Shown: in pieces, positions 1 to 38,543 of the stretch | How positions within the stretch are numbered: position 1 is the stretch's first letter | Layout of the letters: the number at the start of each line of letters is the position of its first letter | Assembly (NCBI RefSeq): GCF_900890425.1 | Contig: NZ_CAAHFG010000004.1 | Location: 124,001-188,000, forward strand | Direction: 5' to 3' | Source of the DNA: Pontiella desulfatans | GTDB lineage: Bacteria > Verrucomicrobiota > Kiritimatiellia > Kiritimatiellales > Pontiellaceae | Length of the DNA: 64,000 nucleotides | Notes under the pieces: generated by a model | The model's input: only the letters and a program-made list of their open reading frames with translations | What the model was told of the DNA's origin: nothing | The model's database searches: none | Program-made: the position numbers and the translations under genes

Positions 1-133
1 CACTATTCAGGCTCAGTACAAAACTGCCCTCAACGAACTTGGATTCGACTTCGAGATATAGAGTCAGTTGGTCGGCGAATTCCTTCAATCCGAATTTATC
101 GAAATCATCAAATGTCATGATTGCTTTACCCAT
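1..133 (-). CDS. KAP-like P-loop NTPase, N-terminal fragment (cut by window edge)
   Basis: Only the first 44 codons are inside the window, starting MGKAIMTFDDFDKFGLKE. The pattern of D-x-F-G, a short helix with 'FADQL', and then a hydrophobic strand ('SFVLSLN') leading off the edge resembles the start of KAP family P-loop NTPases, in which the Walker A loop follows directly. The Walker A itself would lie outside the window, so the family call is a resemblance only. An in-frame second ATG lies five codons downstream. About 260 bases separate it from the 3' end of the comM gene, and I see no convincing gene there. Confidence 0.4.
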   Translation of the reverse strand, partial: MGKAIMTFDDFDKFGLKEFADQLTLYLEVESKFVEGSFVLSLNS

Positions 134-393
134 TAATTTCCCCTCAACTTCCTACCCATAATGTTCTTCACGATGACATTCCCTTGGCTTGCCAACCTCT
201 GGAATACGCCGAGTCCATACCGAGCACATCTCGATCCATACCCCGAAAACTTTTCCCCTCAAACAGATAACATTTTACGATTTCAGACCTCTGAACGAGC
301 GAATAACTGTCATACTCCCGATGTCTTTCAGCGCGTTCCAAAAGAGGAAATTCAAGCCAAAGGGTCAGAACGCTTTTTTCGTCATTTTTCATA

Positions 394-26706: not shown

Positions 26707-28203
26707 ATGACAGAGAAGAACCACACCCTCAGCGGACTCCATATCAACCTTTTTCTTACCGGTCGCCCTTGCCTGGTGGTCGGCGGCGGCAAGGTTGCAA
26801 CACGCAAAATCCAGATGCTGCTCGAAGCCGGGGCGAAGGTCGCGGTTGTCAGCCCCGACGTCTGCGGCGAGCTCGGCGGGCTGATTGAACACGGCCAGGT
26901 GACCCACACCGTCCGCAGGTTCGAGGATCACGACATTGCGGGAGCAACCCTCGTCTATGCCGCCACCAACAGCCGCGGCATCAACCGCAACGTGCTCGAG
27001 GCCTGCCGCGAAAAGGGCATCCTCTGCTGCTGCGTGGACGGAAACTGGGCACAAAGCGACTTTTCCACCCCGGCCACCGCGCGGCACGACAATCTGCTGC
27101 TGTCGGTTTCCTCCGGCGGCAACGATTGCCGCCAGTCGAAAATGGTCAAGAACAGCCTGGCGCGCCACCTCAAGATGATGGACTCCGCCCACCTCGTTGT
27201 GGTCGGCACCGACCACAACCACCTGACGGTGGAGGAGCGCGAGCCGTTCCACCTGACCGGGCACAAGTTCGAGCGCGCCGGGTTCATGATCATGCAGCTG
27301 TGGGGCATCCACGAATTCATGGTGCTCAACACCTGCAACCGCGTCGAGGTGATCGCCGTCGTTTCGGCGGAGACGGCCGAGAACGGCATTCTGCGCCACA
27401 TCATGGGCTTCACCCAGCTCAAGGAAGACAAATACTACTTGAAGACCGGCAGGGAGGCCTTCGAGCACCTTTGCCTCGTCACGGCGGGCATGCTCTCGCA
27501 GACGCCCGGCGAAAACCACATTACCGCGCAGATCAAGGAGGCGCTCGAAACCGCCAAGATGCGCGGCTGGACGGGGAACATGATGCAGGAATGGATCTCC
27601 TCCGCCCTCTTTGTTTCGAAGGCGATCAAGAACGAGGTTTCCCCGTTGCTGCACAACTACGAGATCGAAGACCTCGCCCTGCGCTACCTCGAAGCCCACG
27701 GCAAGGAGCTCGCCCAATCCACCCTGATGGTGCTCGGCGCGGGGATGGTCGGCAAGGGGCTGGTCAAAGACAGCCTCTCCAGGGTGGGAAAGATTATCTG
27801 GTGCTACCACGTCAACAAGCCCGATGTCCCCGCCGACTGGAACGGCAAGGTTGAGCTGTGCACCTTCAACGACATGAAGAACCGCATCACCGATGCCGAC
27901 ACCATTGTCAGCGCCACCGATGCGCCCGGCCATATTCTTCATATGGCGCACGCCCCGTTCTTCAACCAGGAGCGTCCCGTCATGGTCATCGACCTCGGCA
28001 TGCCACGAAACATCGACCCCGAACTCGACGACCTCTCCTCGGACGTCACCGTGGTTGATCTCGACGGGCTCAAATACTGGTATCGTCGTGAACTGACCGA
28101 CATAAACGAGGTCCTCATCCGCAGCCGCGCCATCGCCGCCCAAAACAAAGAGCTCTATGAAAAAATCGCCAATAGTTTTAAAGGCGGGCACGCGGCCGAG
28201 TAG
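26707..28203 (+). CDS. hemA: fusion: precorrin-2 dehydrogenase-like domain + glutamyl-tRNA reductase
   Basis: 498 residues joining two enzymes of tetrapyrrole synthesis. Residues about 8-155 are the NAD-binding CysG-N/Met8-type domain ('CLVVGGGKVATRKIQMLLEA', 'YAATNSRGINRNV', 'ARHDNLLLSVSSGGN'), which oxidises precorrin-2 and may insert iron to give sirohaem. Residues about 162-495 are glutamyl-tRNA reductase: substrate domain with catalytic Cys210 in 'VLNTCNRVEV', the 'TPGENHITAQIKEAL' segment (canonically 'LGEPQILGQVK', so partly diverged), NADPH loop 'LGAGMVGKG' (343-351), and a C-terminal dimerisation region that is shorter than usual. It overlaps the next gene by 47 bases. Together they encode the first committed step and the late sirohaem branch on two polypeptides. 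Confidence 0.9.
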   Translation: MTEKNHTLSGLHINLFLTGRPCLVVGGGKVATRKIQMLLEAGAKVAVVSPDVCGELGGLIEHGQVTHTVRRFEDHDIAGATLVYAATNSRGINRNVLEACREKGILCCCVDGNWAQSDFSTPATARHDNLLLSVSSGGNDCRQSKMVKNSLARHLKMMDSAHLVVVGTDHNHLTVEEREPFHLTGHKFERAGFMIMQLWGIHEFMVLNTCNRVEVIAVVSAETAENGILRHIMGFTQLKEDKYYLKTGREAFEHLCLVTAGMLSQTPGENHITAQIKEALETAKMRGWTGNMMQEWISSALFVSKAIKNEVSPLLHNYEIEDLALRYLEAHGKELAQSTLMVLGAGMVGKGLVKDSLSRVGKIIWCYHVNKPDVPADWNGKVELCTFNDMKNRITDADTIVSATDAPGHILHMAHAPFFNQERPVMVIDLGMPRNIDPELDDLSSDVTVVDLDGLKYWYRRELTDINEVLIRSRAIAAQNKELYEKIANSFKGGHAAE

Positions 28204-30274
28204 CCTGGCCCTTACGCAGACCCGCGGGGCGCTGGACCGGATCGAGGGCATGCTCGAAGAAATTGCCTTCGACATGGTGCCGATCACCTCGGTCGGCGAC
28301 ACCGACCGCACCACCGACCTGCGCGAAAGCCCGGCCGACTTCTTCACCCGCGAGCTCGACGAAGCCCTGCTGCGGGGCGAGGTCGACCTCGCCGTACATA
28401 GTGCCAAGGATCTGCCGGAGCCGATGCCGGGAGGGATCGACTGGTTCTGGCTACCCTGGCGCGAGGAGCCGCGCGATGCGCTCATCCTCGCCCCCGGCCG
28501 CACCATCGCCGACCTGCCAGACCATCCCGTCATCGGCGTCAGCTCGGAGCGGCGCGAGGCCTATTGCACCCAACGGTTCCCCAACGGTATCCAGAAAAAC
28601 ATCCGCGGCAACATCGAGGAGCGCATTGCGCAGGTCGACCGCGGCGACTTCGACCTGGTGGTGATGGCCGCCGCCGCACTGTTCCGCCTCGGCATCGAAG
28701 AGCGCATCACGGAATGGATCGAACTCGACGAGTTGGAGGTTCCCGAAGGCCAGGGCCACCTCGCCGTCACCTTCCGCGAGGGCGACGAACGGATGATGGC
28801 ATTGCGTAGCCTGTTCATGCACGCGGTCACCTTTGCCGGCGCGGGCGTCAGCAACAAGGAGCTGTGCACCATCGCCACCCTGCGCGCATTGAAGCAGTGC
28901 AACATTTGCCTCTACGACTCGCTCATCGACGAATCCCTGCTCAACGAGCTTCCGCCGGGTGCCCAGAAGATCGACGTGGGCAAACGTTGCGGCGCACATT
29001 CCAAGGAGCAGCACGAAACCACCAAGCTGATTTGCGAGTGCGTGCGCCGGAGCAAGCGCGTGGTCCGCCTCAAGGGCGGCGACCCCGGCATCTTTGGCCG
29101 GTTGGCCGAAGAGACCGAAGCGCTCGAACAGCTCGGCATCCCTTTCCGCGTCATCCCCGGCATCAGCGCGCTGCAGGCCGCCACCACCGGAACGGGCATG
29201 CTGCTGACCCGCCGCAATGTTTCCCGCGGTTTCGTGGCGCTCACCCCGCGCAAGAGCGGCGGGGCCCTCGCCCGCTGCGATGCGGCGATGAAGGACACGC
29301 TTCCGGTCATCTACTACATGTCGATCCGCGCCATCGACCGCATTTCGGAACAACTGCTCGAAGACGGCCACCCGGCCGACACCCCCGCCGCCATCGTCTA
29401 CAACGCGGGCGGCGAGGATGAGCGGATCTTCAAGCTGACGATCGGCGAGCTGCCGCGGCACGCGCAAGACCACTGCATCCGGCAGCCCGGCCTGATCCTC
29501 GTCGGCGACATTACGGCCCATGGCTACAAGCCCGATCTCGGCGCCTTGCGGGGCAAACGAATCCTGCTCACCTGCTCCGAATCCATCCAGCAAAAGGCGG
29601 TCGATCTCGTGCACGACCTCGGCGGCCACCCCATCCAATATCCGCTGATCAAACTGCAATGCAGACGTAACATCCCGCTTCGTTGCGATGGCTTCGATTG
29701 GCTGGTGGCAACCTCCCCCTCCTCCGTTCGCTCGTTCATGGAAATCGTGGCTCAACAACGGATCGACTTCCGCACCATCCCGAAAATCATGGTATGCGGC
29801 CGCGGCACCGCCGCCGAATTTGCGGAATACGGCATCCGCGCCGATGCCCAGCCGGAAGGCCACTTCAGCGCCGAAGCGCTCAAGGCCCTTGGCCACGAAC
29901 TGCTGAAACCCGGCGACAAGGTGCTGCGCGTCCGCTCCGACAAAGCCGGCACCGATCTCGCCGATGCCCTGCGCACAACGGGCGCCGAGGTCGAGGACGC
30001 CATCATCTACGACAACGAACAGGTGGTTCACGACGAACTGCCGGAGTTCGATGCCGTCTTTTTCGCCAGCGCCTCCGGCGTGGAATCGTTCATTGCCCAA
30101 TGGGGCGTTGAAGCGCTGAAGAACAAGACCACCGTCGTGATCGGCAAGCCCACTGCCGATGCCCTGGCGAACCATAACCTCGAACCGGATGTTCTTGCGG
30201 GGGAATCGACCATCCCCGGCGCCATCCAAGCGCTGGCGAAAAACTACGTTGCACAAATGGTAATTGATTCTTAA
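28157..30274 (+). CDS. triple fusion: HemC (truncated) + uroporphyrinogen III methyltransferase + HemD
   Basis: 705 residues. About 5-222: porphobilinogen deaminase domains 1 and 2, with 'AGTRPSSLAL', 'DLAVHSAKDLP' (catalytic Asp85), 'GVSSERREAYC' and 'NIRGNIEERIAQVDRGDFDL', ending at 'PEGQGHLAVTFREGDERM'. The third HemC domain, with the 'GGCxxP' cysteine that holds the dipyrromethane cofactor, is absent. About 224-460: SUMT/CobA ('TFAGAGVSNKELCTIATLRA', 'RLKGGDPGIFGR', 'VIPGISALQAA'). About 465-705: uroporphyrinogen III synthase ('RGKRILLTCSESIQQKAVDL', 'VRSDKAGTDLADAL', 'VFFASASGVESF'). The product would turn porphobilinogen into precorrin-2. It starts 47 bases inside the hemA fusion, so it is translated from the same message. 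Confidence 0.9.
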   Translation: MKKSPIVLKAGTRPSSLALTQTRGALDRIEGMLEEIAFDMVPITSVGDTDRTTDLRESPADFFTRELDEALLRGEVDLAVHSAKDLPEPMPGGIDWFWLPWREEPRDALILAPGRTIADLPDHPVIGVSSERREAYCTQRFPNGIQKNIRGNIEERIAQVDRGDFDLVVMAAAALFRLGIEERITEWIELDELEVPEGQGHLAVTFREGDERMMALRSLFMHAVTFAGAGVSNKELCTIATLRALKQCNICLYDSLIDESLLNELPPGAQKIDVGKRCGAHSKEQHETTKLICECVRRSKRVVRLKGGDPGIFGRLAEETEALEQLGIPFRVIPGISALQAATTGTGMLLTRRNVSRGFVALTPRKSGGALARCDAAMKDTLPVIYYMSIRAIDRISEQLLEDGHPADTPAAIVYNAGGEDERIFKLTIGELPRHAQDHCIRQPGLILVGDITAHGYKPDLGALRGKRILLTCSESIQQKAVDLVHDLGGHPIQYPLIKLQCRRNIPLRCDGFDWLVATSPSSVRSFMEIVAQQRIDFRTIPKIMVCGRGTAAEFAEYGIRADAQPEGHFSAEALKALGHELLKPGDKVLRVRSDKAGTDLADALRTTGAEVEDAIIYDNEQVVHDELPEFDAVFFASASGVESFIAQWGVEALKNKTTVVIGKPTADALANHNLEPDVLAGESTIPGAIQALAKNYVAQMVIDS

Positions 30275-33719: not shown

Positions 33720-35882
33720 TCAGTCATCCATCCTCACGTCGATCTTGTAGTATTGGCCGAAACCGACGTGCTCCACGGAGTCGGTGAAGCTGTTGATGGG
33801 CCAGCGGAGCTCCCCGGAAATGTTGGAGAACGGGAGATATTTCAAGTGGTAGGTCCAATAGACGTTGTAGACGCGGCCGGGCATGCTGTTCCATTCCACG
33901 ACGAAGGGCGGATGGCCGTCCACGGGCTGCAGCGACTCCACCGCGGCAATCCCGAATACGGAAGCGGGGTCGGTTGGATCGGTGCCGGCAATGTATTCGG
34001 CCAGGTTGTCGTAGCCATCGCCATCCGCATCGGCGGCGGCTTCGCCGCCGGTTGCGCTGGCAAAGAAACCCGCCTCCCAATTGTCCGGCAGGCCATCCCC
34101 ATCCTGGTCGGCCATGAGGCCGCTGGTCAGCAAGGAATAGTGCTGGGTTCCATTCTGCAAAGCGCCCTCATGATCGACGGTGATCGTGTAGTGGCCACTT
34201 TCCGGAAACCCGATGTAGACCTGCTCCACGTTATCCACCTGGTTTTTCGCATGGGCGGTTGCATTGGCCTCCGGATCTTCGTAGCTCAATTGGAAGGGAT
34301 GGAAGGTGCCTCCCGGACCGGTCACCTTGAGATCGAGATCGTTGACCAAGGCCGGGGTTCGGCTGTCGTGTTCCCAGGTTGAAGCCCCGGGCGGATCCGT
34401 CCAGCACAACGTCACCCGCACCGGCCCGCTGCCATCGGCATAGCAGACGTAGGCGTTGGATTCGTTGGTGGAGGACAGCTTGGCTTCCGTCAGCCGGACG
34501 GGATTTCCGTTGGAATAGTCCGCAAGCAGCTGCCCGGCCTTCAGGGTGTTCATCAGGCCCCAGCCAAACTGGTAGTCGGGGCCGGGGCGACCGAGGTCGT
34601 CCGCCGTATGGATGATCAATGCCTTGAGTGTGCTGGCCCGCATGGCCCCGCCGGGGAAAAGATCGTCGTAATAGTCCACCAGCAGGGCGGCCGATCCGCA
34701 GGCGTTGGGGCTCGACATGCTGGTGCCCGAGCGCGTGGCATAGGCATTGGTTGCGGTCTGGTTGCAGGAATAGAGCTGGTCGCCATTGGCCACGATGTCC
34801 GGCTTGATCCGGCCATCGTCGGCCGGCCCCCAGCTGGTGAAGCCCAGCAGGCTGACATTGGTGAGGGCGCGCTCCCCGTCCACCACGGCATCGGTCACGG
34901 CCCCGACCGTCAGGATGTTTTTCGCGTTGCCGCGGTAGGGGATCGAGTCGTAGCCGTTTTTATAGGCGCCATCGCCGCCGGGATGGATCGAGGCGTCGTA
35001 GATGGCGTTGGTCCAGGTGGTGCCGCCGTCGGGCGAGTAGTAGACCTTGGAACCTTCGGTCGGGTTGTCGTTGCGCTCGTTTCCGGCCGCTTTGAACGGC
35101 AGGAAGTAGGGGGCGTTATATACGATGCTGTCCCAGCTGCGCGTATAGGTGTTGTATTGCCCGAAGGCGGCCTCCGCCTCATCCTCATGGATGTCGCCCC
35201 ACCAGTGGTAGCCCGACCGGCGCGTCCAGGGATTCGTCCAATAGGCATAGTACCACCCCGAAATGTAGCCGTAGGAATGGTTCGAGAGGTGTAGCTTGCC
35301 CGGCTGCCCCGCGGCGGAGGCGGCGGCGGAAATCATTTCGGAATCGTCGCTGTTCCAGTCGTAGGAATCGATTGCGGCGGAGGGCGCCATTCCCAGCGCA
35401 TTGGTCACGATGCCGGAGGCGGCAATGGTTCCACCCACATGGGAGGCATGGTAGTGCGCCGAAACCACGTCCTGGGCCACCACCCGGTTGCCGAACTCCT
35501 GGTGGTTCGTCATCACGCTCCCCCCATCCCAAACCCCCACGACCACCCCCGCCCCATCCACACCGAAAGGCGCCGTATTCCGCACGGCATTCGCCGTTGT
35601 GGATATGGCGGCGTTCTTGTTGAACGTGGTGTTGAAGAGCGGCCGGCCATTCCGCAGGGCCATGATTTCGATGACGTTCCCGCCATCGTCGAACCGTGGC
35701 TCGATGCCCCGTTGCCACGCCCAGGCTTGCGCCTCGGCCTTTTCAAGCGCGGCGCGCCCGGCGGCTTCCTGCGCGCGGGAGGATCGGTCGGCCATGGCCT
35801 GGGCGGCCAGAAAAAACAAGGCCAGCCCCGCGGCTTCCAGGGGTTGGAATCCGGTCGAAGGTCTGGTTCTTCCCGTTTTCAT
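33720..35882 (-). CDS. secreted subtilisin-family (S8) serine protease, copy 1
   Basis: About 720 residues. The N-terminus (MKTGRTRPS, then a hydrophobic stretch to AMA) is a signal peptide; a GTG at 35903 is an alternative start. A short propeptide-like region follows. Catalytic residues: Asp119 ('VVVGVWDGG'), His148 ('AHYHASHVGGTIAA'), oxyanion Asn268 ('KAAGNER') and Ser388 ('RSGTSMSSPNACGSAALL'). After the catalytic domain comes a jelly-roll P-domain-like region ('VRVTLCWTDPPG', 'ALVNDLDLKVTGPGG'), an 'DQDGDGLPDNWE...DADGDGYDNLAEYIAG' calcium-binding-type linker, and the STNL module ('VEWNSMPGRVYNVYWT' to 'YYKIDVRMDD'). It should act outside the cell. The paralogue at 36416 has the same plan. 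Confidence 0.92.
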   Translation of the reverse strand: MKTGRTRPSTGFQPLEAAGLALFFLAAQAMADRSSRAQEAAGRAALEKAEAQAWAWQRGIEPRFDDGGNVIEIMALRNGRPLFNTTFNKNAAISTTANAVRNTAPFGVDGAGVVVGVWDGGSVMTNHQEFGNRVVAQDVVSAHYHASHVGGTIAASGIVTNALGMAPSAAIDSYDWNSDDSEMISAAASAAGQPGKLHLSNHSYGYISGWYYAYWTNPWTRRSGYHWWGDIHEDEAEAAFGQYNTYTRSWDSIVYNAPYFLPFKAAGNERNDNPTEGSKVYYSPDGGTTWTNAIYDASIHPGGDGAYKNGYDSIPYRGNAKNILTVGAVTDAVVDGERALTNVSLLGFTSWGPADDGRIKPDIVANGDQLYSCNQTATNAYATRSGTSMSSPNACGSAALLVDYYDDLFPGGAMRASTLKALIIHTADDLGRPGPDYQFGWGLMNTLKAGQLLADYSNGNPVRLTEAKLSSTNESNAYVCYADGSGPVRVTLCWTDPPGASTWEHDSRTPALVNDLDLKVTGPGGTFHPFQLSYEDPEANATAHAKNQVDNVEQVYIGFPESGHYTITVDHEGALQNGTQHYSLLTSGLMADQDGDGLPDNWEAGFFASATGGEAAADADGDGYDNLAEYIAGTDPTDPASVFGIAAVESLQPVDGHPPFVVEWNSMPGRVYNVYWTYHLKYLPFSNISGELRWPINSFTDSVEHVGFGQYYKIDVRMDD

Positions 35883-35951
35883 CGAATATTCGCTCAATGC
35901 CACCTATGGGTAGATAGACACCGGACATCCGGGAACATTCAAAATCGGGAC

Positions 35952-36191
35952 TCAGTCGAAGGGCAGCGTGATGGCCTCGCCGAAGGGCGTCCCGACCAGG
36001 GCCGTGATCTCGAACAGCATGGCATCGCCCCGCTCTTCCAAAGGCCGGGCCGGTTGCCGTGTTCCGGCCTCCGCCACCAACGCGGGCCTGGGGGGCGGAA
36101 CGAGGGCGGGTGTATTCAAATTCAGTATCCCGGCGACAGAAAGCACCAATCCCGCGGAAACAATTGTACCAATGGCAATCATAAGCAACAT
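35952..36191 (-). CDS. small membrane-anchored or exported protein
   Basis: 79 residues from MLLMIAIGTIVSAGLVLSV, a single N-terminal hydrophobic segment, then a proline/arginine-rich linker and a short tail 'MLFEITALVGTPFGEAITLP'. It lies between the two subtilase genes on the same strand. GAGG lies about ten bases before the ATG. I do not recognise it, and its small size makes it uncertain; the membrane segment and clean frame are the only support. Confidence 0.4.
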   Translation of the reverse strand: MLLMIAIGTIVSAGLVLSVAGILNLNTPALVPPPRPALVAEAGTRQPARPLEERGDAMLFEITALVGTPFGEAITLPFD

Positions 36192-36415
36192 GCAACCGGA
36201 ACCTCTTCCGGCCAGCACTCGCTATAGATAGCCGCTTTTGTGCCAATAGTAAAGGTTTCTTGTGCCCTTCGCACGGAGTACAGCGAGATATCCCCCGCGC
36301 GCAGATGCCACGCATCTTACGACGGCCGTGGCGAGATGCGTGGCGCCATTTTGGGCAGGCCGGTTCTGGTGCTTGGAACAAGAGCGGCCAAGGGGAAGTC
36401 GGATCCGCAGGAAAC

Positions 36416-38470
36416 CTACTCGCCGATCTTCACGTCCACCCGGTAGAAGATGGGGGAAACCGCATGGCTCACCGTGTCGGTGTAGCTGTTTTGGGAGGAG
36501 GGCAGATCCGTTGCATCCGGGAATGGAGCGAAGTCCACATATTTCAGGTTGTAGGTATAGCTGACGCTATAAACGCGCCCCTCTTCCGTTGTCCAGTTGA
36601 CAACAAACGGCGTGCCGCCGGTGTGGTTGGCGGAATAGGAGGTGACCTTGAAAACGGAATTGGGATTGTTGGGAAGGGTGCCGGCAATATATTCGGTCAG
36701 GTTGTCGGTGCCATCGCCGTCGGAATCGGCGGTCGCCACTGCGCCCGTCGTACTGGAGAAATATTGCTGCTCCCAATAGTCGGGCATCTGGTCGCCATCG
36801 GAGTCGGAAGAAACGCCATCGATAAACAGGGAATAGCGTTGGGTTCCGCCGGACAGGGAAGAGCCTTCATAGTTGATGGTGATGGTGTAGATGCCGGGCG
36901 TCGGGCTGGCCACGTAGATTTGCTCCACATTGTCGACATCGTTGTCGCCGGTGGTTGCCGTTGCAGCAGGGCTCGCGTAGCTGAGCGTGTAGGGATAGCG
37001 CGTGCCCCCCGGCCCGGTGATGGTCAGATCGAGGTCGTTCACCAAGGCGGGCGTTCTGATATCGTCGCCGGATTGCGCGGTACCGGGCGGGTCTGTCCAA
37101 CAGAGGGTGACCCGGAAGGGTTCCCCCGATGCGGAAACCACAAAACTATCGGACGGATTGGCCGTCGATGAGAGAGAATCCTCCCGCAAGCGATTCAGGC
37201 TGCCGGAGGCATAGTCTTCCAGCAACTGGGCCGCCGCCAAGGTATTCATCAGCCCCCAGCCATATTGGTAGTCGGGGCCGGCTCGACCAAGATCGGTCGC
37301 GGTGTGGATGATCAACCCCTTAAGCGTGCTCGCCCGCATGGCGCCGCCCGAAAACAATTCCTTGTAGTATTCCACCAGCAGCGCCGCCGACCCGCAGGCA
37401 CTGGGCGAAGACATGCTGGTTCCGCTCAATGTGGTATAGTCCGAATCGTCGTCATCATCCGTTGAATACAGCTGATAGCCATTGGCGACGATATCCGGCT
37501 TGATGCGCCCATCGTCGGCCGGGCCCCAGCTGGTAAAACTGGTATAGGTCCCTGCGGAAGGATAGCGATTCCCCCCCGAGACCGCGTCATTGACCGCCCC
37601 GACGGTCATCACGTTTTTCCCGATCGCCTCGTGGGAGATAATGTCGTACCCCCCCTTGTAATAGCCGTCGCCCACAGGGCTGCTGCTTGATGTCCCGTCG
37701 GTTCGATCATTGCCGGATGACCAAAATGGCAAATAGTACTGGGCATTGTACAAGACCTGGTCGACCGTGCGCGCCTCTGAATTGTATTGCCCGAATTCGT
37801 CGCGGTTGTCGTAGAAGGTCCCCTGCGTCCAGCCTACGCCCTGGCCGTAGGAATGGTTGGAGAGATAGATCTTGTTTCCGGTCTGCCCCGGCGCGGTGGC
37901 GGCGGCGGTGGTCATTTCCGAAATATCGGAATTCCAATAGTAGGAGTGGATGCTGGCCGAAGGCGCCATGCCCTTGGCATTCGTCTGCACGCCCTTTGCC
38001 CCGATAGTTCCGGCCACGTGGGTGGCATGGTAGTGGGTGGTGGTGTAGCCGTCTTTTACCACCGCCCGGCCACTGTCGAACTCCTGGTGCGAAGTTCTGA
38101 CGGCACCGGCATCCCACACGCCCACATTGATCCCCGCTCCATCGAGGTTATAGGGCGCCGTGGTGCGCACCTTGTTTGCGGCGGAGGAGATCGCGGCATT
38201 GGAGTTGTGCGTAATGTAGTAGACAGGTTTTCCGTTTCGCACCGCCATCAGCTCCATGACCTGGCGTCCGTCATCAACACGCATTGGCTTGTTGTTCGCC
38301 AGGGCCCAAACCCTTGCCGCTTCCTTGTCGGTAGAAGCCTTTTCGGCCAGCTGGAGGGCAAAGGCCTCGCGTTCGAAAGGCTTCTCTTCGAAAAGAGAAA
38401 TCTGCTGAGCCTGGGATGCCGACGCTGCCATCAACAGAGCCCCGATCAATCTATGTGTATGATTTCGCAT
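36416..38470 (-). CDS. secreted subtilisin-family (S8) serine protease, copy 2
   Basis: About 684 residues from MRNHTHRLIGALLMAASAS, a clear signal peptide. Same order as copy 1: short pro-region, S8 domain with Asp120 ('NVGVWDAGAV'), His151 ('HYHATHVAGTIGA'), oxyanion Asn ('WSSGNDRTDG') and Ser352 ('TLSGTSMSSPSACGSAALL'), jelly-roll region ('FRVTLCWTDPPG', 'ALVNDLDLTITGPGG'), calcium-type linker ('DSDGDQMPDYWE', 'DSDGDGTDNLTEYIAG'), and the STNL module ending 'IFYRVDVKIGE'. An aspartate-rich loop ('TDDDDDSDY') precedes the catalytic serine. The last 95 residues are closer to the metalloprotease at 38759 than to copy 1. The start has only weak ribosome-site support. Confidence 0.92.
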   Translation of the reverse strand: MRNHTHRLIGALLMAASASQAQQISLFEEKPFEREAFALQLAEKASTDKEAARVWALANNKPMRVDDGRQVMELMAVRNGKPVYYITHNSNAAISSAANKVRTTAPYNLDGAGINVGVWDAGAVRTSHQEFDSGRAVVKDGYTTTHYHATHVAGTIGAKGVQTNAKGMAPSASIHSYYWNSDISEMTTAAATAPGQTGNKIYLSNHSYGQGVGWTQGTFYDNRDEFGQYNSEARTVDQVLYNAQYYLPFWSSGNDRTDGTSSSSPVGDGYYKGGYDIISHEAIGKNVMTVGAVNDAVSGGNRYPSAGTYTSFTSWGPADDGRIKPDIVANGYQLYSTDDDDDSDYTTLSGTSMSSPSACGSAALLVEYYKELFSGGAMRASTLKGLIIHTATDLGRAGPDYQYGWGLMNTLAAAQLLEDYASGSLNRLREDSLSSTANPSDSFVVSASGEPFRVTLCWTDPPGTAQSGDDIRTPALVNDLDLTITGPGGTRYPYTLSYASPAATATTGDNDVDNVEQIYVASPTPGIYTITINYEGSSLSGGTQRYSLFIDGVSSDSDGDQMPDYWEQQYFSSTTGAVATADSDGDGTDNLTEYIAGTLPNNPNSVFKVTSYSANHTGGTPFVVNWTTEEGRVYSVSYTYNLKYVDFAPFPDATDLPSSQNSYTDTVSHAVSPIFYRVDVKIGE

Positions 38471-38543
38471 GGTTAAATTAAATACACGCGTTCCTTCGAT
38501 AGCACGATTATAAAACATGTTCGTTTTTCTCACCTTCCCTTAC

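Follow-up and report, generated by a model that had tools for sequence, protein, structure and literature searches.

The DNA analyzed here, referred to as the window, is a stretch of 64,000 nucleotides from Pontiella desulfatans (assembly GCF_900890425.1, contig NZ_CAAHFG010000004.1, positions 124,001 to 188,000). It carries an open reading frame in which hydroxymethylbilane synthase (porphobilinogen deaminase, HemC) is joined to CobA and HemD (Table 1). The gene encodes HemC domains 1 and 2, CobA, and HemD, and lacks both domain 3 of HemC and the cofactor cysteine.

Table 1. Features of the fusion gene and of the gene upstream of it, in window coordinates
Feature	Position	Strand	Remarks
Met8/SirC-type NAD-binding domain and HemA fusion	26707..28203	+	Upstream gene; NAD-binding domain at residues 15-123, HemA at about 162-490
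HemC(domains 1-2)-CobA-HemD fusion	28157..30274	+	Open for 705 codons, 705 residues; Pfam, NCBIfam, predicted structure
HemC domains 1-2	28181..28798	+	Residues 9-214; catalytic K84, D85, R13, R132, R133, R150, R156, R177, Q199
Remodelled active-site loop	28304..28345	+	Residues 50-63, D50...SPADFF; x-D-F-F where canonical enzymes have K-G-x-F
Junction of 9 residues, site of the expected start of domain 3	28799..28825	+	Residues 215-223
CobA/SUMT domain	28826..29524	+	About residues 224-456; TIGR01469, CysG and SUMT structures
HemD domain	29552..30247	+	About residues 466-697; HEM4 (PF02602), 4es6

The fusion and its missing domain

A preliminary description of this DNA had read the gene as a HemC-CobA-HemD fusion lacking HemC domain 3 and its cysteine, and both parts of that reading held. 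In the Pfam search, Porphobil_deam (PF01379) matched residues 9-214 with 180.5 bits, from profile position 2 to 206 of 207, followed by TP_methylase at residues 224-432 and HEM4 (PF02602) at residues 483-690, the last passing its cut-off of 27.5 with 132.9 bits. The NCBIfam model for CobA, TIGR01469, was also passed (202.7 bits, cut-off 185). The Pfam list of the fusion, taken to an E-value of 10, contained no further family and hence no PF03900, the family of domain 3; from such a list the HMMER filters discard most matches above about 0.1. The NCBIfam hemC model TIGR00212 was covered at positions 1-220 of 293 only.

HemC and CobA are separated by residues 215-223 alone. Because this gap is of nine residues, there is no physical room for a domain 3 of about 70-100 residues. 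The junction was free of insertions in the alignment of 48 fusions of type A (one of two types described below), the window's own among them, and is therefore no assembly or frameshift artefact. In Escherichia coli HemC the hinge comprises residues 218-221, domain 3 residues 222-313, and the cofactor sits on C242 (PMC3945110). The HemC part of the fusion thus stops at the hinge before domain 3.

The AlphaFold2 model of the whole fusion, built on a 39-row alignment, had a mean pLDDT (predicted local distance difference test) of 88.2 and a pTM (predicted template modelling score) of 0.85. The top 12 structure matches were all porphobilinogen deaminases, with 198-217 aligned residues each; residues 5-220 of the model corresponded to residues 3-220 of the E. 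coli enzyme 1pda (Z 23.1, 1.8 Å over 208 residues). The region of about 220-456 aligned with CysG and SUMT structures, and residues 466-697 with HemD 4es6 (Z 18.5, 2.5 Å over 230). Some matches had ranges running into CobA (for example 1ypn, 5..249, and 7ccy_C, 6..326), but such ranges give the first and last residue and add no aligned residues. A cryptic equivalent of domain 3 had been considered at the outset, and none was apparent in the model of the whole fusion.

The genome of the window (G000; 8,658,305 bases, 6 contigs, 95.17% complete) gave one match to PF01379, the fusion itself, and none to PF03900 at an E-value of 10; each search was positive in 11 of 14 control genomes. A profile of the phylum's own domain 3s (21 sequences, short ones included) retrieved from the same genome only a frame of 28 residues at an E-value of 1.83, which is noise. 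A second hemC and a hidden domain 3 elsewhere in the genome were both rejected on these results, and the earlier suggestion that a separate protein supplies domain 3 was not supported.

Eight genomes were reached through their fusion loci: Pontiella sulfatireligans F21 (L042) and three Pontiellaceae (L046, L049, L052), with records not labelled as metagenome-assembled genomes (MAGs), two Victivallis MAGs (L065, L066), a Lentisphaerae MAG (L061), and UBA1200 (L057). Five of them are, by identical coordinates, members of the phylum sample (G159, G161, G226, G227, G247). Each had a single PF01379 match, and none of the eight had PF03900 over its cut-off; four weak matches occurred in three genomes, the best at an E-value of 0.287.

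The PF03900 scores of canonical domain 3s from Verrucomicrobiota can be close to or below the cut-off of 26, which makes this family alone a poor test. The case for a lost domain 3 in the fusion is built on the residues that are missing. The cofactor cysteine was present in all 22 canonical-type domain 3s displayed for the phylum. Six canonical Verrucomicrobiota HemCs (L021, L022, L023, L025, L027, L030) had a very short domain 3, with 71-77 residues after the cut, in which the Gly-Cys motif was kept and PF03900 scored 21-27 bits.

Distribution and relatives

The phylum sample consisted of 288 genomes searched at an E-value threshold of 0.001. PF01379 was found in 187 of them and PF03900 in 96. 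The PF01379-positive genomes closest to the window were 69 in number (its own, 7 of the genus, 3 of the order, and 58 of the class), and PF03900 was present in only three of these (G059, G180, G203), whose HemC rows (L102, L103, and L101, respectively) fell on the canonical side of the tree.

We aligned 56 distinct fusions without domain 3, of which 48, including the window's, belonged to type A and 8 to type B. They came from the loci that were fetched, and the PF01379 search of the phylum gave further long open frames beyond them. Five partial fusions (L053, L058, L062, L067, L071), duplicates, and the HemC copies of L110, L111, and L112 were left out before counting. The 36 canonical rows used for comparison were mostly the best-scoring PF01379 or PF03900 matches and are not a random sample.

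The fusions were 39-78% identical to the window's, and the strain P. sulfatireligans F21 was among the carriers. In a 39-member alignment (A1), each of the three fusion domains was matched in all members, and PF03900 was not found at an E-value of 0.1. In the tree of domains 1 and 2 calculated without L050 and L040, type A (47 rows) lay on one side of a branch with support 99/98 and type B on one side of a branch with 99/94; both types jointly were separated from the 35 canonical rows with support 100/100. A fuller tree of the 56 fusions and 36 canonical rows again split off the canonical side at 100/100. The loss of domain 3 is therefore clade-wide and no local accident. Type B (L074, L082, L091, L092, L093, L094, L098, L109) has a longer loop, and its junction motif was VGCPA in seven of eight members and VGSPA in L074.

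One of the three exceptions, in G203 (L101:2273-4447), has the same three activities in one chain. Unlike the window's protein, it keeps a shortened domain 3 with its cysteine (PF03900 28.9 bits, cut-off 26). Since it sits on the canonical side, it is taken as an independent fusion, and this combination of enzymes seems to have arisen twice. We rejected it as an evolutionary intermediate because it was canonical in both trees. In two other Verrucomicrobiota (L110:3536-5266 and L111:3090-4649), HemC occupies the C-terminal part of frames of 577 and 520 residues; the first 240-290 residues had no Pfam match at an E-value of 1e-4, and the frames may overrun the real starts.

HemC without domain 3 is not wholly new, as NCBIfam already holds such a family, NF002202 (PRK01066). 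This is a hydroxymethylbilane synthase family of 241 positions that, like the fusion, has HemC domains 1 and 2 and no domain 3, but it is of stand-alone length. The window's protein did not pass its cut-off of 251 (131.9 bits, the match ending at position 225 of the family); the type B fusion L109 scored 168.1 bits and the type A fusion L095 151.3 bits. For the canonical HemCs L103 and L008, the match to NF002202 broke off before reaching the domain-3 cysteine.

We take NF002202 to be a chlamydial family, and the chlamydial comparison consisted of it and one putative chlamydial HemC sequence, not drawn from a database record. This sequence matched NF002202 over 1-240 with 421.2 bits and had PF01379 but not PF03900. 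It shared D50, D68, A83, and D161 with the fusions; its residues at positions 61 and 183 were Y and P. In the tree this single row was placed at 100/100 with the enzymes that lack domain 3, on a long branch of 2.31. On these comparisons, the lack of domain 3 is probably older than the fusion. In the literature searched, no paper on HemC without domain 3 was found among the matches listed (titles and starts of abstracts).

Active site, loop, and cysteines

The E. coli residues described in PMC3945110 were matched to the fusions by position, through PDB and family alignments. The counterparts of R11, S13, Q19, D46, S81, K83, and D84, and those of S128, S129, R132, R149, R155, R176, and Q198, were identical in all 56 fusions, so that the catalytic aspartate and arginines noted in the preliminary description are indeed present. 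The counterpart of R131 was kept in all 48 type A fusions and in 3 of the 8 of type B. In the E. coli simulations, S81, K83, D84, S128, S129, R132, R155, and Q198 touch the dipyrromethane stage (PMC3945110). Domains 1 and 2 are thus kept under strict constraint, catalytic and pyrrole-binding residues included. The fusion shares with canonical HemC (PF01379 and PF03900; TIGR00212; 1pda) the fold of these domains, the catalytic Asp and Lys, and the arginine set. It differs in lacking domain 3 and the cofactor cysteine, in the replacement of a lysine of the lid loop, and in the attached CobA and HemD.

The canonical loop reads K or R (32 of 36), then G (36 of 36), then any residue, then F (36 of 36). 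In the domain-3-less enzymes the position matched to E. coli K59 was never K and only once R (L072, 1 of 56); position 61 was D in 52 and N in 4, followed by F in 54 or Y in 2 and by F in all 56. Three other positions separated the two groups: D at position 50 (56 of 56 vs. 1 of 36 canonical rows, L102), D at position 68 (56 of 56; among canonical rows E in 34, D in 1, and Q in 1), and R at position 183 (56 of 56 vs. 5 of 36). In these alignments the active-site lid loop has changed in step with domain-3 loss, which we read as the change to be expected of an enzyme that went on functioning. In simulations of the E. coli enzyme, K55 of this loop contacts Q243, E305, and V306, all of domain 3 (PMC3945110), and in one mutant structure of the human enzyme K74 of the same loop contacts cofactor ring C2 and S1 (PMC7907807). 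K55 itself is a weak marker, because K stood in the matched column in only 11 of the 36 canonical HemCs of the phylum.

No cysteine was invariant across the 48 type A fusions. The commonest were C251 (43), C237 (36), C547 (36), C137 (34), C248 (31), and C473 (31). A fixed cysteine anchor is therefore excluded as a family rule for type A, and a conserved cysteine in its linker, CobA, or HemD was rejected; the earlier proposal that a linker or CobA cysteine holds the cofactor found no support. At the position of E. coli A172, a residue in contact with the growing chain in simulations (PMC3945110), we found Cys in 8 of 8 type B fusions, Ala in 36 of 36 canonical HemCs, and Ala in 47 of 48 type A fusions. 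A cysteine anchor relocated to this position may exist in type B.

Pathway context and possible mechanism

The upstream gene overlaps the fusion by 47 bases. NAD_binding_7, GlutR_N, and Shikimate_DH passed their Pfam cut-offs in it, and the hemA model TIGR01035 scored 139.5 bits, below its cut-off of 209.55. The gene joins the first enzyme of the pathway to a domain of the precorrin-2 dehydrogenase type. The siroheme synthase CysG (Met8-CobA) also has a CobA domain, and the Met8-type domain here sits in the HemA gene; the partners otherwise differ, as CysG has no HemC or HemD.

HemB was found in all 69 HemC-bearing genomes mentioned above; at class level the HemB and HemC sets differed by G168 alone, with a weak HemB match and no HemC. 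A hemB-like gene followed the fusion on its own strand in 19 of the 56 loci, with a distance from the frame end of no more than 300 bases in 16, and a hemL-like gene did so in 12, generally farther off; the flanks of the loci were unequal, and the NCBIfam check covered HemB of L042 and HemL of L072. In the window's genome, hemB, hemL, and hemE are on a contig other than the fusion's; hemB and hemL lie about 6 kb apart on contig C3, and hemE is over its cut-off, with an adjacent open reading frame read by eye as hemN. Since the fusion holds the only HemC found and the neighbouring steps are present, it seems to be the sole route to uroporphyrinogen III in this genome. ResB and CcsA-type genes near the fusion in the window are consistent with a need for heme. 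A word search of PMC6388578, on Pontiella strains, gave no "heme", "cytochrome", or "cobalamin". The window also carries two adjoining genes of the subtilase family (S8), alike by eye, at 33720-38533 on the minus strand.

We consider it very likely that the fusion is an active hydroxymethylbilane synthase working without an anchor of the domain-3 type. The reading that we favour, as a probable one, is that the covalent dipyrromethane anchor has been lost and that an untethered dipyrrole serves as primer in a working enzyme fused to two enzymes that use its product. This dipyrrole, either part of a hydroxymethylbilane or the condensation product of two porphobilinogens, would be held non-covalently as primer in the arginine-lined cleft. 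Four porphobilinogens would be added by the usual Asp-assisted chemistry, and cleavage would release hydroxymethylbilane to the fused HemD, giving uroporphyrinogen III. Part of this would be methylated by CobA to precorrin-2 and part would leave for HemE. Chain movement could not depend on a tethered cysteine pulling the chain. Among the three anchor proposals of the preliminary description, the non-covalent primer remains the best. The channelling of porphobilinogen to precorrin-2 that it proposed would be part of the story; as hemE is present, uroporphyrinogen III should also leave the fusion.

Several points weigh against an untethered primer in a working enzyme. Canonical HemC holds its primer through a covalent bond to a conserved cysteine; the E. 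coli mutants R131L and R132L lose cofactor binding and are inactive, and the counterpart of R131 is lost in five of the eight type B fusions. R232H is detrimental, and R232 belongs to domain 3 and is absent from the fusion. K55Q and K59Q affect E. coli activity and the K59 counterpart is missing in the fusions, so that the loss of the lysine counts against simple equivalence (all mutants from PMC3945110). The substrate rings S1 and S2 bind the same pocket, in the places of C1 and C2 (PMC7907807), and conservation of its residues therefore does not prove a primer. At 95% completeness a missing gene is not strictly excluded, and in the genome of the window hemB lies apart from the fusion.

The double use of the pocket also favours a synthase without any primer, in which four porphobilinogens would be condensed directly, the first as acceptor and with no stored dipyrrole, and HemD would close the product. 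The absence of a domain-3 anchor and of an invariant type A cysteine, and the rebuilt loop over the cleft, would fit it as well. However, unless hydrolysed, the chain would end in an aminomethyl or some other group, and the R131/R132 pair, complete in type A, is known for cofactor binding (PMC3945110). We regard such a synthase as unlikely.

It is improbable that the primer is attached to a residue of domain 1 or 2 in place of the domain-3 cysteine. The cysteine of type B at the A172 position, where canonical enzymes have Ala and where the growing chain passes in the E. coli simulations (PMC3945110), points in this direction, but in type A 47 of 48 members carry Ala at this site and no cysteine is invariant, so that a cysteine anchor cannot be general.

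CobA is attached to domain 1 at the hinge, the point from which domain 3 would otherwise extend, and could lie near the cleft; the CobA or HemD part, or a non-homologous separate protein, might replace domain 3 and hold the primer. This is very unlikely, since the 241 positions of NF002202 leave no room for CobA, and a fused part is therefore not needed for the loss; nor is there an invariant cysteine in CobA or HemD of type A. Hardly credible is an inactive or repurposed HemC part with another route to hydroxymethylbilane: the cofactor of the canonical enzyme does sit on the domain-3 cysteine, but the catalytic residues are unchanged at 39-78% identity, HemB is kept throughout, hemE is present, and there is no second PF01379 match in the window's genome or the eight others.

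Among enzymes that make their own covalent primer and carry the growing chain on a tether, hydroxymethylbilane synthase is the textbook case. A group of bacteria seems to begin the synthesis of the heme and siroheme ring precursor in another way, with an enzyme that has no domain to hold the starter. Beyond the untethered primer in the window's fusion, it is rather likely that a whole lineage has a synthase that needs no covalent cofactor, its chain being held by the arginine-lined cleft alone or made without a primer. The lineage would comprise most of the Kiritimatiellota and Lentisphaerota that have the pathway, probably together with the Chlamydiota. For annotation, a demand for PF03900 would wrongly mark the pathway as incomplete in these bacteria. 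A natural synthase without a tether, if true, would reveal the essential part of the primer and tether mechanism, would help to decide between the models of a moving chain and of a sliding active site (both in PMC3945110), and would offer a minimal two-domain enzyme for study. If the lineage reading is true, the thioether-anchored dipyrromethane would be dispensable for hydroxymethylbilane chemistry.

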